A DNA stretch of 54,646 nt from a virus. Below are positions 1 to 54,646 of the stretch, one piece after another. The first letter of the stretch is position 1. Each line of letters starts with the position of its first letter. The translations under genes were made by a program, and so were the position numbers. The DNA lies in IMG/VR virus record IMGVR_UViG_3300028111_000008, positions 1 to 54,646 of that record. One strand, 5' to 3'. Below the pieces are notes generated by a model. The model was given only the letters and a program-made list of their open reading frames with translations, did no database searches and was not told the origin of the DNA.

Positions 1-70
1 TATTCATTTTATTGCTCTTTCTACTAAGTTAATTCTACTATTAGCACTCGTTAAAATGCTAATGTTAAAG

Positions 71-292
71 TTAACTATTCAAATAACCATTCATTCTATT
101 CTCAAAATCTTGTTTCATTTCTTTTATGGCTATATTCCAATCTTTATTTTGATCTAATGAATTAACAGTAAAGCAATCTATTTCTACAGCATCAACATTA
201 TTAAACAATTGCTCATAAACTGATATAAGCGTCCCTCCATGCCATTTATAAGAAAAACCGCTATCATCAAATTTTATTTCTGTATCAAACAT
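71..292 (-). CDS. small conserved protein, left paralogue or allele
   Basis: A 73-residue protein of unknown function, acidic in its second half, with no membrane segment. It is a diverged version of the 65-residue protein at 53757-53954: both start MFDTEIKFD, share KWHGGTLISVY and end near QDFENRMN, with a short insertion in this copy. Its start codon overlaps the end of the next upstream gene (292-510), so the pair is probably co-translated. Two copies with conserved reading frame support it being a real gene. Confidence 0.7.
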   Translation of the reverse strand: MFDTEIKFDDSGFSYKWHGGTLISVYEQLFNNVDAVEIDCFTVNSLDQNKDWNIAIKEMKQDFENRMNGYLNS

Positions 293-510
293 TATGCTAT
301 TTCCTCTTCTAAGTTTTTATATGCGTTTGTAATTGCGTTTTTATCATCAGTTGTTTTGACTATTTTGATATGTTTCTTTTTAGTATTATAATGTGAGAAT
401 TCTATTTCTGTTTTTAAAGATGCTTTTGTGTAGTCTCCGAATTCATCAAACCATTTTTGGCTATCAGTGTCATAGACGAAAAGAATGTAATAAGGTTTTG
501 TTGTTGTCAT
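292..510 (-). CDS. small conserved protein, first gene of leftward operon (left copy)
   Basis: A 72-residue protein of unknown function with a FVYDTDSQKWFDEFGDY core. It is almost identical to the 69-residue protein at 53957-54166 and differs mainly at the first residues and the C-terminus. In this copy it directly follows the promoter leader and is the first leftward gene; in the right copy another small gene (54171-54299) sits between. It probably acts early because it is next to the promoter, but no function can be read from the sequence. Confidence 0.72.
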   Translation of the reverse strand: MTTTKPYYILFVYDTDSQKWFDEFGDYTKASLKTEIEFSHYNTKKKHIKIVKTTDDKNAITNAYKNLEEEIA

Positions 511-543
511 AGCTAAATCCCTAAATAATTATTAATACATTAT

Positions 544-572
544 TCTATAAATTCATATTACACAAATAGCAA
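544..572 (-). promoter_or_regulatory. leftward sigma70-type promoter (left copy)
   Basis: On the minus strand TTGCTA and TATAGA are separated by 17 bases, and the first leftward ATG lies 34 bases beyond the -10 box. The right-end copy keeps the -10 exactly and the 17-base spacing with TTGTCT as -35, while the spacer itself has changed. Conservation of boxes but not spacer supports function. Confidence 0.55.
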
Positions 573-802
573 TACATTTATTTTGATATCATTAAAATAT
601 ATTAATATTTATTTATACTATATAATAGAAATAAAAAAGTATTAGCATTCGTATTGAAAATTAACCGCTGAGAGGCGTTGAGTTTGTTTGTGTGGTTTAG
701 CCTATGGGAATAGCCTAGAGGCTGTCAGTGGCGTGTTCGCTGTTTGTTCCGAGGGGGGTGTGGTAAAAATGTCACATTTCCAGGCGGTGTGGTATTTATG
801 CA

Positions 803-839
803 TCAATGTTACTAAAACGACACAGTGTTGCAAATATGT
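803..839. promoter_or_regulatory. two-part motif shared with the 49.7 kb promoter region
   Basis: TCAATGTTACTAA (803-815) and GTGTTGCAAATATGT (825-839) lie side by side here. The first recurs in the same orientation at 49742-49754, and the second recurs inverted at 49766-49780, immediately beside a promoter. The right-end copy of the control region repeats the first part. This looks like a binding site for one regulator acting at two places. Confidence 0.4.
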
Positions 840-956
840 CGCAAAAATACGCTTAAAACACCATTTATTGAAGCTGTATCAGTGCTTTTATGTAATGATT
901 ACAGTAACTTAGAGGTGTTTTGACCCTAGAAATATCTATTATTATTATTTTTAGAT

Positions 957-988
957 GGGTAGGCGTGGGACATAGGGGGGTTGGGGGG
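957..988 (+). other. G-rich block with G-quadruplex pattern
   Basis: G-tracts at 957-959, 967-969, 975-980 and 983-988 are separated by 7, 5 and 2 bases, which fits the usual four-tract quadruplex pattern. It stands out in an AT-rich control region, next to candidate promoters. Role unknown; origin or transcription control are possible. Confidence 0.45.
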
Positions 989-1104
989 TACGTATATATG
1001 TATAAACACACAGAAGTGAATTTTGAGTTAGGTCCCCTCGTATACGCAGCCATACAAAAGTACAACATTCTAGAAAAAACTTACAACATAATGCATTTTA
1101 GGGG

Positions 1105-1132
1105 TTGACTAGGGTGTTTTTATGAGTATAAC
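1105..1132 (+). promoter_or_regulatory. candidate rightward sigma70 promoter
   Basis: TTGACT, a 16-base spacer and TATAAC, each box one base from consensus. It faces the rightward structural genes, which begin 270 bases downstream at 1401. No other evidence of activity. Confidence 0.5.
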
Positions 1133-1224
1133 TGCGGAGCAGGAGCAGTATAGTTACACTTAAGTGTTTTAACTCTTAATAAAGTAATATATATAATAAA
1201 GTTTAAGTAGGATAAAGTTTTTAC

Positions 1225-1253
1225 TTGTAAGTGTTACTGTGTTGCTGTATACT
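1225..1253 (+). promoter_or_regulatory. candidate rightward promoter overlapping GTGTTAC repeats
   Basis: TTGTAA, 17 bases, TATACT. The spacer contains one copy of TAAGTGTTAC (1228-1237). A second copy lies at 1288-1297, with an inverted GTAACAC at 1263-1269 between them. The arrangement of a promoter with flanking repeats looks like an operator set. Confidence 0.4.
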
Positions 1254-1400
1254 AATACGTATGTAACACACATAAAAGTAACAAACATAAGTGTTACACT
1301 ACTGTACGTGGCGTATATTGTGTGTATTTCCTCCTCATGTCTCCTCCCTCCTGCATGTAATTGCGTCACGTACCTCTTTCCTTAGAAAAAAGTATTGACA

Positions 1401-35600: not shown

Positions 35601-36121
35601 GAGAGGGTGAGATATATGATGCTAACCCTTTTGCTAGAATCTTTGGTCTGACTATAAAGCAGGGTCGTACAGCTACTGAGAAAGCATACTCTATGTCTGA
35701 GATGCAAGCTTGGACTGCTAATGAGAGATCTAAACTACCTGCATATGATAGAGCATTCAACGGTATGTTAGCCCCTATCTTAGAGAGACAGACGCAGAGA
35801 CTTTTAAGGACAGAGCAGTTTATGAAAGCTGACCTACCCGAAAGACGTGGTATGTTAAAGGCTGTACTACGTAGTGCTAAGAAGCAGATACGTGAGAGGT
35901 TAGATGATGGTTATACTACAGGTGATAATGTTAAGCTAAGAGCTGCATATAAAGCAAAGTCAAAGTTCTCTAAAGAGATAACTACAGAAGCTAAGAAAGT
36001 ACTGAAAGAAAAGTTTGGTGTGAGCGGTGATATAGAAGACTATTCTTTCGCTGAGCTAGATTTATTTATAAGTTATAGTGAACATCTCAAAGATGCCTAT
36101 GACGAAGCTGGTCAGTTATAA
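32630..36121 (+). CDS. large internal/ejection virion protein
   Basis: 1163 residues, the last rightward gene. Lys/Ala-rich helices (residues 165-260), long amphipathic helices, and hydrophobic patches near residues 755-765 and 815-825. Size, composition and position match the largest internal or ejected proteins of podoviruses, which help DNA cross the envelope. No enzymatic motif seen. It begins three bases after the preceding stop and ends at a strong terminator. Confidence 0.65.
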   Translation: MNYFEQKEYMKNLYSGADSSSEKKYETLSFDPEETLSVDDIRKDYKYNQPIRDYMIERMGVDYQTKSDEDVVDDFVKHMRYFNSNTVMTAGEVRFVTKANDRQKETARKAYQIYDQLGNVFVNDGLMGAVKGVGDYVFAAASDPTNYLGILTGGIGRAAAGGVQVSGKQVIKAAVRKAGRDALRSGATKKAAREAGRKAGKEAAERAAARGMTDKRTKGIYDKVSKLVETEAKKTIPRDAMKEAQKNLFRTAATKSLYATTALDATAAVYQDIANQEARLEVGAQDSFSKTQSAFSALLGGVAGGAQLITRKLGAGKSGFEDTRTETEKLAQNTIDLYAPILKKTDTPEAAKAIRKATDKWNAKVARGKKGRGEVIDDSQLIREIMFGDVEGEIGGLVGVFRSKGYKVGKEVHISDVMTNVANSLTQKELEDINIAFAKHTGFKFGDLTGARVKLGDLMADRFSEAGKTLQVASQVSKTLNSGLLAAETKIKLQSNTIKKAEESEKTLADGTKVPKPPEPLRYGQSVWKRLLVSSPATTALNVAGFSQYYVGQTIADLFSSTALMTKGVAQSTYNTKAAQESFRQARALSSLQVQKLRNLMDPYTTRDAYMKFLEDPENLDAQKVLFETMAGGVDASAKRYGMDPNNPTFRNVEAFTRAMNQITGVRIQDTFTKSQMFMTDMDKYLRLKRGVTLKEALLSDDIIIDDEVISGALDTTLKSVFAKDYTTKEQPEIIRTAAKFVETVSNTPFLGTILPFGRFFNNVVATAYQWGPFSAPETLLKPMYKRIVKKEGMGVSEMDAAARTTVGIAGLILASQYDKERRDEGLGVYEINVGGGKIIDAKNTYPFSAFLAAGRIFNMKLNGETVPPELIQEMGTQVAVGQLAKDAQFGNDLNNLLDVLINQDEGARGAQFNAFQKTFGNLLAGTTRPLDAVNKIVGFAMGTDAAKDVRQADGLGLFTQTSTKYFDNILEAFIGKTDTITGEDLKVATREGEIYDANPFARIFGLTIKQGRTATEKAYSMSEMQAWTANERSKLPAYDRAFNGMLAPILERQTQRLLRTEQFMKADLPERRGMLKAVLRSAKKQIRERLDDGYTTGDNVKLRAAYKAKSKFSKEITTEAKKVLKEKFGVSGDIEDYSFAELDLFISYSEHLKDAYDEAGQL

Positions 36122-45682: not shown

Positions 45683-45919
45683 TCACTCTTGTTTGAACTC
45701 CACGTAGTACGAACCTGCACTACTCTTATATGCAGCCATGATGTCTAACCATTGTTGGCTACTCATGATTAACATTTGATAAGCATCCATCTCAGGTTCA
45801 AACTGTCTCATGTACACAGTACCCTCATCTCCAAAGATAATCTCTATGTCTTCATGCTTACCAGAGTGATCTAATGTAGTGATGATTGATGCATCAGATT
45901 CAAACTCAACTGTGAACAT
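45683..45919 (-). CDS. small acidic hypothetical protein
   Basis: 78 residues, starting MFTVEFESDASIITTLDHSG; alternating beta strands and a C-terminal helix, negative charge. Preceded by GGAGGG, itself inside the end of the tiny gene at 45906. No family recognised; lies between DUF3310 and the helicase in the replication cluster. Confidence 0.6.
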   Translation of the reverse strand: MFTVEFESDASIITTLDHSGKHEDIEIIFGDEGTVYMRQFEPEMDAYQMLIMSSQQWLDIMAAYKSSAGSYYVEFKQE

Positions 45920-46034
45920 CTGAACCCTCCGCTACAATTATATTTACTTGTGCTACATTACCCACAACTTTAACAATCTTAAACTCTAATCCTTCTTTGG
46001 TAAGTAATCTTCTTAACATAGATACTGGTATCAT
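45906..46034 (-). CDS. tiny basic/hydrophobic protein
   Basis: 42 residues: MIPVSMLRRLLTKEGLEF, then a hydrophobic strand region. The ATG shares bases with the upstream stop (ATGA) and its end overlaps the next gene start by 14 bases. Translation coupling suggests it is real, function unknown. Confidence 0.55.
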   Translation of the reverse strand: MIPVSMLRRLLTKEGLEFKIVKVVGNVAQVNIIVAEGSDVHS

Positions 46035-49302: not shown

Positions 49303-49454
49303 TATACACTCTCCTCTTCTATCTGTTTAAATATACTAGCTAACCTAGTAACACTTTCTTTAGGTAGAGTTACTTCCTCTGCCTCACTCTTAACTAACAT
49401 ACCACCATCTTCTAAGATAGTAGCAGTCCACTCAGGTGTTAGTTGTACTTCCAT
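49302..49454 (-). CDS. tiny acidic protein
   Basis: 50 residues: MEVQLTPEWTATILEDGG, then an acidic strand-helix and an end at EEESV. Its start touches the end of the HTH gene. Function unknown, but it is coupled at both ends. Confidence 0.5.
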   Translation of the reverse strand: MEVQLTPEWTATILEDGGMLVKSEAEEVTLPKESVTRLASIFKQIEEESV

Positions 49455-49684
49455 TATGCATTCTCCTCTACTAATGTGTAACGTGTATATCTTTGATTTG
49501 TAACTGGATGTCTCCCTGCTATGCCATCAATACGATAGCCTAACTTACGCAGCTCAGAGATACGCTTGGTGAAAGACTGTATGCTATAGTCTATCAAAGC
49601 TTCTCGTAAGGTTAGACCCTTAGATGCACGAAGGTGCTTGAGTATCATTGTGTGTTGAGACATTTTCTTATTTGTATTTCTCAT
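49454..49684 (-). CDS. helix-turn-helix protein (HTH_39-like)
   Basis: A 76-residue protein with a winged-helix core: TMILKHLRASKGLTLREALID, then FTKRISELRKLGYRIDG and a wing with RYTRYTL. Similar HTH_39-type proteins act as phage regulators or DNA-binding factors. First gene after a promoter (49717-49745) and an operator-like site, so it may control this very region. The best regulator candidate of the leftward unit. Confidence 0.7.
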   Translation of the reverse strand: MRNTNKKMSQHTMILKHLRASKGLTLREALIDYSIQSFTKRISELRKLGYRIDGIAGRHPVTNQRYTRYTLVEENA

Positions 49685-49716: not shown

Positions 49717-49745
49717 GATATATTATTAGTTTTAGTGTTAGTCAA
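49717..49745 (-). promoter_or_regulatory. internal leftward promoter
   Basis: On the minus strand TTGACT (49745-49740), 17 bases, TATATC (49722-49717), 33 bases before the ATG of the HTH gene. It would allow separate control of the replication genes from the early unit. Confidence 0.5.
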
Positions 49746-49780
49746 TGTTACTAATATGTCACGTTACATATTTGCAACAC
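49742..49780. promoter_or_regulatory. operator-like palindrome and shared motif
   Basis: AATATGT (49753-49759) and ACATATT (49766-49772) flank a six-base centre, a palindrome-like site at the -35 side of the promoter. The whole block also contains the two sequences shared with 803-839. A dimeric regulator could bind here; the HTH protein is the natural suspect. Confidence 0.45.
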
Positions 49781-49967
49781 CTAGTTCTATAGGTATCTCT
49801 ACAGTCTGCGCTTCGTAGTCACATTGATGGCAATACTTTCTTCTCCTAGTACTTGGGTATCCAAGCTTATGATAAGGTCTAGTATCTATGGTACGCATCT
49901 TAGTAAAACAGCAGGGACAATGTGTAACTACTGTATCCTTCCACCAAGGTTGTTTAATCTCTGCCAT
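49764..49967 (-). CDS. NrdR-like zinc ribbon protein
   Basis: 67 residues from ATG 49967 (frame open to 49991). CPCC, TIDTRP, STRRRKYCHQC and EAQTVEI follow the order of the NrdR zinc ribbon, the repressor of ribonucleotide reductase genes, but the ATP-cone is missing. In a phage carrying nrdJ it may act as a repressor mimic or antagonist. Ogr/Delta-type activators also have small zinc ribbons and are an alternative. Confidence 0.55.
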   Translation of the reverse strand: MAEIKQPWWKDTVVTHCPCCFTKMRTIDTRPYHKLGYPSTRRRKYCHQCDYEAQTVEIPIELGVANM

Positions 49968-49971
49968 TAAA

Positions 49972-50205
49972 CTATACCTTATCCACTTCAAACGCCCATC
50001 GTAGGCTATGCCAAGCGCTTTCTAATTTAGCTACATCACTCATGTATAAATCATTACAGTCTTTGATCATCTCTAAACAACTAGCTACACTCTTTTGTAT
50101 TTCTTCTATAGCTTCTCTCTGTTCATCAGACATTTGCTTTAGAACCTTCTGAGTTTTCATCTGCTTTTTAACTCTAGCTTTATGCCAATCTGTATGCTTA
50201 CTCAT
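49972..50205 (-). CDS. coiled-coil hypothetical protein
   Basis: 77 residues, helical throughout: a basic start (HKARVKKQMKTQKVLKQM) and an acidic middle with leucine spacing. No family recognised; a small DNA or protein-binding helper is possible. Confidence 0.55.
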   Translation of the reverse strand: MSKHTDWHKARVKKQMKTQKVLKQMSDEQREAIEEIQKSVASCLEMIKDCNDLYMSDVAKLESAWHSLRWAFEVDKV

Positions 50206-52868: not shown

Positions 52869-53036
52869 TTAAGCAATGTCAAATACTAAATTCATCTCAT
52901 AAACTTCACGCGATAATTCAATAAGCTTTTTAGCTTGCACCAATGTTAAATTATTATCATAGGCAAATTTAGTAACAGATATATAATTGTTTACCCAATC
53001 TAGATAAATATCTTTTAGCTTTAAAGAGTATTCCAT
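52869..53036 (-). CDS. tiny helical protein
   Basis: 55 residues: MEYSLKLKDIYLDWVNNYIS, then KFAYDNNLTLVQAKKLIEL, three helices in HTH-like spacing. Short but open frame with an AAAAGGA ribosome site. Could be a small DNA-binding protein. Confidence 0.5.
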   Translation of the reverse strand: MEYSLKLKDIYLDWVNNYISVTKFAYDNNLTLVQAKKLIELSREVYEMNLVFDIA

Positions 53037-53108
53037 TTTGTTTAATCCTTTTTAGGTTTAATATTATTTAGTGATACTCAAAAGAATACCACCAATAATA
53101 TTAATTCA

Positions 53109-53693
53109 TTATGCTATTTCATGAATGCGTCGCCATACTACCCACGTAATAGCTTGTAATTCATATGCTTTTAAACCTAATGCGTTTGCTGTATTCACGT
53201 AATCGTTTTGTATTTCTGCATATAGTTTTTTACCAATGTTAGTTTTATCGGATGTTAATCCAAATCTTTCTCCGCGCCATATGTTTAGAGCGTGACCATC
53301 AATACAACACGCATCAAAACCCATTATGCATTCGTAAAAGCTTTTAATCTTTTGACCATTTAATCGTGTCAAAATATCGTCATTAGTTACAAGCATATCA
53401 TCAAGTATTGACCACGCTTTTTCTTTCATTTTGTGATATGTTGAAACCTTAACGCTTTCAATATGTTCACCATCAAGATAAGCTTTTATCAATGCATCCG
53501 CGTTATCTATATTCCTATCCCATTTATTATTCGGACTAAGCGCGGATATGACACCAACCACTGTTGAAAGTTTTATATCATATTTTAAAGAGATTTCTTT
53601 TGCTTGATATTGCGCGTCACTATACCATTTCACACCATTATAAACTTCTTTTGGTGTCGCAAGCTTCCAAATCATTGCTATATTATTATTCAT
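53109..53693 (-). CDS. conserved phage protein (DUF7178-like, glycosylase-like features)
   Basis: 194 residues, helical. VVGVISALSPNNKWDRNIDNADALI, KIKSFYECIMGFDACCIDGHALNIWRG and a Trp-rich end follow the order of a conserved phage family (I remember it as DUF7178), in which the helix-turn-helix spacing and Asp near the end recall HhH DNA glycosylases. Not proven. Its first bases match the left end of the window. Confidence 0.6.
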   Translation of the reverse strand: MNNNIAMIWKLATPKEVYNGVKWYSDAQYQAKEISLKYDIKLSTVVGVISALSPNNKWDRNIDNADALIKAYLDGEHIESVKVSTYHKMKEKAWSILDDMLVTNDDILTRLNGQKIKSFYECIMGFDACCIDGHALNIWRGERFGLTSDKTNIGKKLYAEIQNDYVNTANALGLKAYELQAITWVVWRRIHEIA

Positions 53694-53756
53694 TTTATTG
53701 CTCTTTCTACTAAGTTAATTCTACTATTAGCACTCGTTAAAATGCTAATGTTAAAG

Positions 53757-53954
53757 TTAACTATTCATTCTGTTTTCAAAATCTTGTTTCATTTCTTGTA
53801 TTACTATATTCCAATCTTTATTATCAGCTAATGCAATAACTGTAAAACAATCAAATTCAACAGCGTCAAAATTATAAACTGATATAAGCGTACCACCATG
53901 CCATTTATAAGAATAACCGCTATCATTATCAAATTTTATTTCTGTATCAAACAT
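53757..53954 (-). CDS. small conserved protein, right paralogue or allele
   Basis: 65 residues; same family as 71-292, with an eight-residue deletion in the middle and several substitutions (for example SGYSYKWHGG against SGFSYKWHGG). Function unknown. Conservation of frame in both copies shows selection. Confidence 0.7.
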   Translation of the reverse strand: MFDTEIKFDNDSGYSYKWHGGTLISVYNFDAVEFDCFTVIALADNKDWNIVIQEMKQDFENRMNS

Positions 53955-53956
53955 TT

Positions 53957-54166
53957 TTATATTTCCATTTCTAAGTTTTTATATGCGTTTGTAATTGCGT
54001 TTTTATCATCAGTTGTTTTGACTATTTTGATATGTTTCTTTTTAGTATTATAATGTGAGAATTCTATTTCTGTTTTTAAAGATGCTTTTGTGTAGTCTCC
54101 GAATTCATCAAACCATTTTTGGCTATCAGTGTCATAGACGAAAAGAATGTAATATGATTTTGCCAT
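53957..54166 (-). CDS. small conserved protein, right copy
   Basis: 69 residues, almost identical to the protein at 292-510 (FVYDTDSQKWFDEFGDYTK), with different first residues (MAKSYY against MTTTKPYY). Follows the extra gene at 54171 by four bases. Confidence 0.72.
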   Translation of the reverse strand: MAKSYYILFVYDTDSQKWFDEFGDYTKASLKTEIEFSHYNTKKKHIKIVKTTDDKNAITNAYKNLEMEI

Positions 54167-54170
54167 TATT

Positions 54171-54299
54171 TTATACCTTACTTTTTATTGAGAATGAATA
54201 ATTCACGATTGCGTTTTTACGAAATGGAACAAATAGAAAGAACATGAAATGTTTTGTTTGTGTCTCTCTAACTTTGCACGTTTCAAATTTTAATCTCAT
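54171..54299 (-). CDS. tiny basic protein present only in right copy
   Basis: 42 residues: MRLKFETCKVRETQTKHFMF, then FLFVPFRKNAIVNYSF. The sequence before its ATG (CATAGCTAAATCCCTAAATA on the plus strand) is identical to the leader before the 72-residue gene in the left copy, so the same leader serves different first genes. A real variable gene or a strain difference; function unknown. Confidence 0.5.
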   Translation of the reverse strand: MRLKFETCKVRETQTKHFMFFLFVPFRKNAIVNYSFSIKSKV

Positions 54300-54331
54300 A
54301 GCTAAATCCCTAAATAATTACTAATACATTT

Positions 54332-54360
54332 TCTATAATTTATATTTATACAAAAGACAA
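54332..54360 (-). promoter_or_regulatory. leftward sigma70-type promoter (right copy)
   Basis: On the minus strand TTGTCT, 17 bases, TATAGA, 33 bases before the ATG at 54299. Corresponds to 544-572 in the left copy with the same -10 box and spacing. Confidence 0.55.
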
Positions 54361-54482
54361 TACATTTATTAAGAAAATATAAAATAGCAAAAACCTGGTA
54401 TGTTCTCCTTTTGTTCTTTTGGATTTGTTTATACTATATAATGGGTTAAAAAAAGTATTAACATTTGTGTAAAAATTAACCG

Positions 54483-54543
54483 CTGACAGCCTCTAGGTTT
54501 GTTTGTGTGGTTTAGCCTATGGAAATAGCCTAGAGGCTGTCAG
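54483..54543. repeat. perfect 15-base inverted repeat in the control region
   Basis: CTGACAGCCTCTAGG (54483-54497) and CCTAGAGGCTGTCAG (54529-54543) with a 31-base loop. The left copy has the right arm intact but a changed left arm (from about 669), so the stem is lost there. Could be an origin cruciform, protein site or transcription hairpin. Confidence 0.75.
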
Positions 54544-54646
54544 TGACGTGTTCGCTGTTTGTTCCGAGGGGGGTGTGGTAAAAATGTCACATTTCCAGGC
54601 GGTGTGGTATTTATGCATCAATGTTACTAAAACGACACAGTGTTGC

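Follow-up and report, generated by a model that had tools for sequence, protein, structure and literature searches.

Lambda CI and Cro are temperate phage regulators that act at autoregulated operator arrays. The zinc-finger late activators Ogr of P2 and Delta of P4 recognize sites of the form TGT-N12-ACA near −55. In Cluster A mycobacteriophages (L5/Bxb1 stoperators) related phages carry different site sequences, each read by its own regulator (PMC6550527).

The locus described here belongs to a marine phage of the HMO-2011 type and consists of an array of boxes in the divergent control region (site A) and a dyad at an internal promoter (site B). It resembles lambda in that the promoter of a small HTH gene carries an operator dyad, operators of similar type occur in the divergent control region, and an integrase gene is present in the window (the whole stretch of 54,646 nt that was analysed). 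In contrast to lambda, CI/Cro homologues were not identified; the operator adjoins the −35 hexamer on its upstream side and the array is located ∼5 kb away across the contig ends. The lineage-specific arrays may recall the immunity groups of Cluster A; however, stoperators are 13-bp asymmetric sites present in 20–30 copies per genome, whereas here three to four sites in one place are accompanied by one dyad. The two-part site (TGTTRC-N6-GYMACG near −52) resembles that of the Ogr/Delta systems and, in the window, has a zinc-ribbon gene beside it, but this zinc ribbon matches NrdR-type models and is absent from most site-bearing phages. An Ogr/Delta activator system, which needs a gene of the Ogr_Delta family wherever the site occurs, was rejected.

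The nearest isolate to the window, a 54.6-kb virus record, is Roseobacter phage CRP-207, described as HMO-2011-type (PMC9038755); the window helicase matches that of CRP-207 at 96% and that of HMO-2011 at 58%. The HMO-2011 type is marked by a replication module (DNAP, DnaB-like helicase, primase) and a structural module collinear with those of HMO-2011/CRP phages. The window has the gene order of CRP-207 and both modules are collinear, which places it in this type. It encodes a DnaB-like helicase, a DNAP with DnaJ-type CXXCXGXG motifs, ribonucleotide reductase, terminase and a tyrosine integrase. Structural genes run rightward from 1395; replication genes run leftward from the other side of the control region. 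CRP-3, a phage of the same type, integrates at a tRNA-Met gene according to passages of PMC6918029 that mention neither a promoter nor a repressor. The site B element was not found in a search of the HMO-2011-type literature, whose retrieved passages name no regulator or control site.

Positions 1–831 of the window recur at 53687–54646 as a 72–100% identical variant. Three contigs (L090, L091 and L196) are 100% identical to window positions 1–1400 and continue leftwards into sequence 95% identical to 53000–54162; because they join left-end to right-end sequence, the two ends of the window represent strain variants of a single locus. The record, about 0.9 kb longer than the true genome, is most sensibly treated as a circular or terminally overlapping sequence. 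Coordinates of the features are given in Table 1.

Table 1. Features of the control region, the HTH_39 locus and the right contig end in the window
Feature	Position	Strand	Basis
Divergent non-coding control region	520..1394	.	Cumulative GC skew minimum here, maximum near 36000 where arms meet
Site A box 1, TGTGGTAAAAATGTCACA	759..776	+	Site B matrix; aligned in 15 sequences
Site A box 2, TGTGGTATTTATGCATCA, weak	789..806	+	Site B matrix
Site A box 3, TGTTACTAAAACGACACA, contains part of 13-mer TCAATGTTACTAA	807..824	+	Site B matrix
Site A box 4, TGTTGCAAATATGTCGCA, contains 15-mer GTGTTGCAAATATGT	826..843	+	11.7 bits, top non-site-B match in window
Possible promoter reading rightward, next to site A: TTGAAG, 17 nt, TGTAAT	868..896	+	Sequence; TTGA[AC]G conserved in relatives' alignment
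Probable main rightward promoter, structural/late arm: TTGACT, 16 nt, TATAAC	1105..1132	+	Sequence and CRP-207 alignment
HTH_39 (PF14090) winged-helix protein, 76 aa, candidate autoregulator	49454..49684	−	Pfam E 1.2e-10; phrog_4973
Sigma70-like HTH_39 promoter: −35 TTGACT (49745–49740), 17 nt, −10-like TATATC (49722–49717)	49717..49745	−	Sequence
Site B: 34-bp dyad, two inverted 18-bp boxes	49746..49779	.	Sequence; near-invariant in relatives
Site B box, TGTTACTAATATGTCACG	49746–49763	+	
Site B box, TGTTGCAAATATGTAACG	49762–49779	−	
Small zinc-ribbon protein, NrdR-like N-terminal domain, 3′ end overlaps site B	49764..49991	−	PF22811 E 7e-5, below cut-off; TIGR00244 E 1e-3
Strain-variant copy of 657–831 at right contig end; boxes 1–3 repeated, box 4 cut off	54472..54646	+	

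The sequence-only reading had reported that two strings are shared by sites A and B, the second one inverted. Both were recovered: TCAATGTTACTAA occurs at 803–815 and 49742–49754 (both on the plus strand), and GTGTTGCAAATATGT occurs at 825–839 (+) and 49766–49780 (−). A further copy of TCAATGTTACTAA, at 54618–54630 (+), was rejected as an independent site, since it lies in the overlapping contig end, a strain variant of the same locus. Both sites had been taken as non-coding; site A is located in the non-coding control region, but the second part of site B overlaps the last codons of the 49764–49991 (−) frame. Among 60 Markov-simulated windows, locus pairs with two exact matches of at least 13 bases within 60 nt arose six times (∼0.1 per window), so the exact matches alone are only suggestive. 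The exact 15-base identity between sites A and B is particular to the window phage and its closest relatives; two other genomes (G007 and G008) keep the half-sites with a different spacer. Decisive for the reality of the motif are its conservation and a cluster test with a matrix built without site A.

The boxes of site B have the form TGTTRC-N6-GYMACG. On the minus strand TGTTGCAAATATGTAACGTGACATATTAGTAACA is directly followed by the −35 hexamer, the spacer and the −10-like hexamer given in Table 1, and then by the HTH_39 start at 49684. The −35 is good and the −10 is poor; a consensus promoter scan did not call this promoter. Centred near −52 and directly adjoining the −35, the dyad occupies a position usual for an upstream-bound activator or a regulator touching RNA polymerase. 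In bacterial promoters, such an arrangement points to an activator or a polymerase-contacting regulator more than to a repressor that merely blocks. As RNA, the site B strand is predicted to fold well (z −2.8); covariation of its pairs was not above that in shuffles, and the dyad is therefore taken to act as DNA, the RNA hairpin being rejected. Variation in site B has the pattern of a DNA operator: the outer half-sites are fixed, and in the distal arm the middle is free to drift.

Searching IMG/VR with the site B core yielded 68 stretches. Site B is located directly upstream of HTH_39 in 66 of the 68, with the gene starting 50–80 nt downstream, and the remaining two stretches run off the contig. 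Sequences upstream of site B fall into 11 unrelated groups, while site B itself is nearly invariant. The core is present once, and only once, in each of 10 near-complete genomes, and it is missing from seven relatives without site B. In the upstream regions of 80 HTH_39 relatives picked irrespective of site B, most marine phages carry the same block, TGTTGCA-N4-TGTAACGTGAYAWAATGGTAACATTGAC, and the −35 TTGAC is conserved. No site B was found at the Cobavirus HTH_39 loci of ICBM1 and P12053L. Palindromes TGTTGC-N6-GCA[AT]CA in G042, G051 and G053 were considered as moved operators and rejected, as they fall within genes and their scores do not rise above background. Site B is thus well supported as a genuine and highly conserved regulatory element in the HTH_39 promoter. 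A conserved dyad at a regulator gene's own promoter is characteristic of autoregulated phage transcription regulators, and we regard site B as a probable autoregulated phage operator, with HTH_39 as its candidate binder.

The junction between the HTH_39 gene and the 11 different sequences upstream falls exactly on site B, as might happen if site B were no operator but a conserved boundary at which gene cassettes recombine, and site A a set of iterons or origin landmarks; the minimum of cumulative GC skew at the control region is in line with this explanation. However, skew also tracks the direction of transcription, and a mere boundary needs no two-box dyad fixed against a −35, which makes this explanation improbable. 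Equally unlikely, in our estimate, is that a host transcription factor reads the boxes and couples phage genes to host state. PhoB/OmpR-type factors bind 7-4-7 direct repeats, and each box can be divided into two 7-mers that lie 11 bp apart around an A/T-rich spacer, reminiscent of a PhoB box. Still, in phages the element is tied to a single phage gene, and 85,000 bacterial and archaeal species genomes (257 Gb) contained one match to site B, chance-like and in a different context on a rumen Paludibacteraceae contig, though the stringent pattern would miss degenerate sites. Being nearly absent from bacterial and archaeal genomes, the site B pattern is a phage element.

To score the control region we used a matrix built solely from site B arms of relatives, site A being excluded. 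The four boxes of site A, contained in 85 bp, reached a cluster score of 30.9; the maximum in 300 Markov-simulated genomes was 21.7. All window-lineage contigs examined keep three to four boxes, with changes, equally far from the next gene. A comparable box array was detected in the control regions of none of the other lineages; boxes 1 and 2 have a GGGGTGTGGT-type unit in common with lineages using other operators. The possible promoter beside site A was not called by the consensus scan. An exact 20-mer search for box 4 added mostly matches in other marine phages at the beginning of a conserved gene that is unrelated, which cautions against reliance on exact matches. An unrelated marine phage group (L294–L304, L306–L311, L313–L316, L318, L319, L321 and L322) carries TGTTGCAAATATGTCACAAAA at a conserved gene start and matches box 4 there, by coincidence or otherwise.

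In lineages other than that of the window, unrelated palindromes such as TGTGATCACA take this place in the control region. In CRP-603 this sequence occurs four times within 120 bp (54104–54222), with no other exact copy in the 54.5 kb of the genome. Eight other phages have it only in the control region, apart from one exception; where at least three copies are present, the spacing is about 31/42/31. Many HMO-2011-type phages have such arrays; those of two to four copies were also seen in the control regions of L162, L245, L250 and L253. The control region of CRP-2 has TGCA-N4-TGCA repeats. Beside the array of the window, at 985–1021, there is a GGGGTACGTATATATGTATAAACACACAGAAGTGAA-like element that can be made out in the majority of HMO-2011-type control regions viewed, including those with a differing array; it is a possible candidate for an origin element.

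General conservation of the pair of sites among relatives is not supported, as distant phages with a perfect site B carry unrelated control-region palindromes. Four genomes (G001, G002, G003 and G010) combine a perfect site B with TGTGATCACA arrays, so that array and site B differ there; G004 has no box in the control region. In lambda-type immunity the operator type is tied to the repressor: the window lineage shares the box type between its sites, while G001–G003 do not. Given that site B is well conserved and that boxes of its type cluster in the control region, a single regulator at sites A and B of the window lineage is plausible, with a chance slightly below even. Such a regulator may link early and late transcription, as had been suggested.

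Alternatively, HTH_39 could bind site B and a different phage protein, specific to the lineage (a repressor or replication initiator), could bind the array, the likeness between the two being partial and convergent. The array operator type changes between lineages (TGTGATCACA; TGCA-N4-TGCA in CRP-2) and site B stays constant, as two regulators would predict. Yet the window-lineage array fits the site B matrix beyond chance, and control regions of distant site-B phages also tend to hold one box, of 8–10 bits near −425. In three contigs with site B, the 5′ leader of the first early gene holds a box of 17.4 bits. Control-region boxes score higher in phages with site B than in those without (Mann–Whitney p 0.02, an optimistic value given the small sample of related lineages). 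We consider two regulators a realistic possibility, clearly short of an even chance.

HTH_39 is the best candidate for the regulator shared by sites A and B, a plausible one that we put forward tentatively. It belongs to its Pfam family with 41.5 bits against a cut-off of 21.3. HTH_39 proteins with an identical invariant central helix are present in G053-type phages, which have neither site B nor a comparable box; for this reason HTH_39 need not be the binder. The predicted structure is of middling quality (mean pLDDT 75) and matched no known regulator, with no significant match in Foldseek and no Z above 4.4 in VIA-align.

Building on the observed architecture, conservation and linkage, we propose that site B would be the operator of an internal early promoter from which HTH_39 and, probably, the downstream replication genes are transcribed. 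HTH_39 would autoregulate by binding at its own promoter, probably in dimeric or tetrameric form. The upstream position would favour activation at site B, and the most economical scheme would be autoregulation, positive or dual, that takes in HTH_39 as well as the replication genes. In the window lineage HTH_39 may also bind the four weaker control-region boxes, adjusting transcription or replication that starts there. The entire reading, with HTH_39 acting at both site B and the control-region boxes, comes close to, but does not reach, an even chance. It is doubtful, though conceivable, that HMO-2011-type phages in general have interchangeable lineage-specific arrays resembling immunity groups, with HTH_39 as an autoregulated master regulator that uses, in the window lineage, one operator type for its own promoter and the control region. 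For these abundant, partly temperate marine phages, candidates for gene control are now concrete and testable: a fixed operator–promoter–HTH_39 module and lineage-specific arrays.

The zinc ribbon, also named by the sequence-only reading as a candidate binder of site B, was rejected because it is not conserved with the site. Its gene adjoins site B in just 11 of the 68 contigs and is missing from six of the 10 near-complete site-B genomes; CRP-207 and G001–G005 lack it. The 49764–49991 (−) product is a stand-alone NrdR-like zinc ribbon without the ATP-cone part, found in phages that carry ribonucleotide reductase.

In a phyletic profile for other regulators, the perfect trackers of site B were, besides one 42-aa orphan, small frames antisense to larger genes. 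The orphan, MIPVSMLRRLLTKEGLEFKIVKVVGNVAQVNIIVAEGSDVHS, is encoded at 45906–46034 (−) between the primase and helicase genes, and is present in all 10 site-B genomes and in none of the seven without site B.
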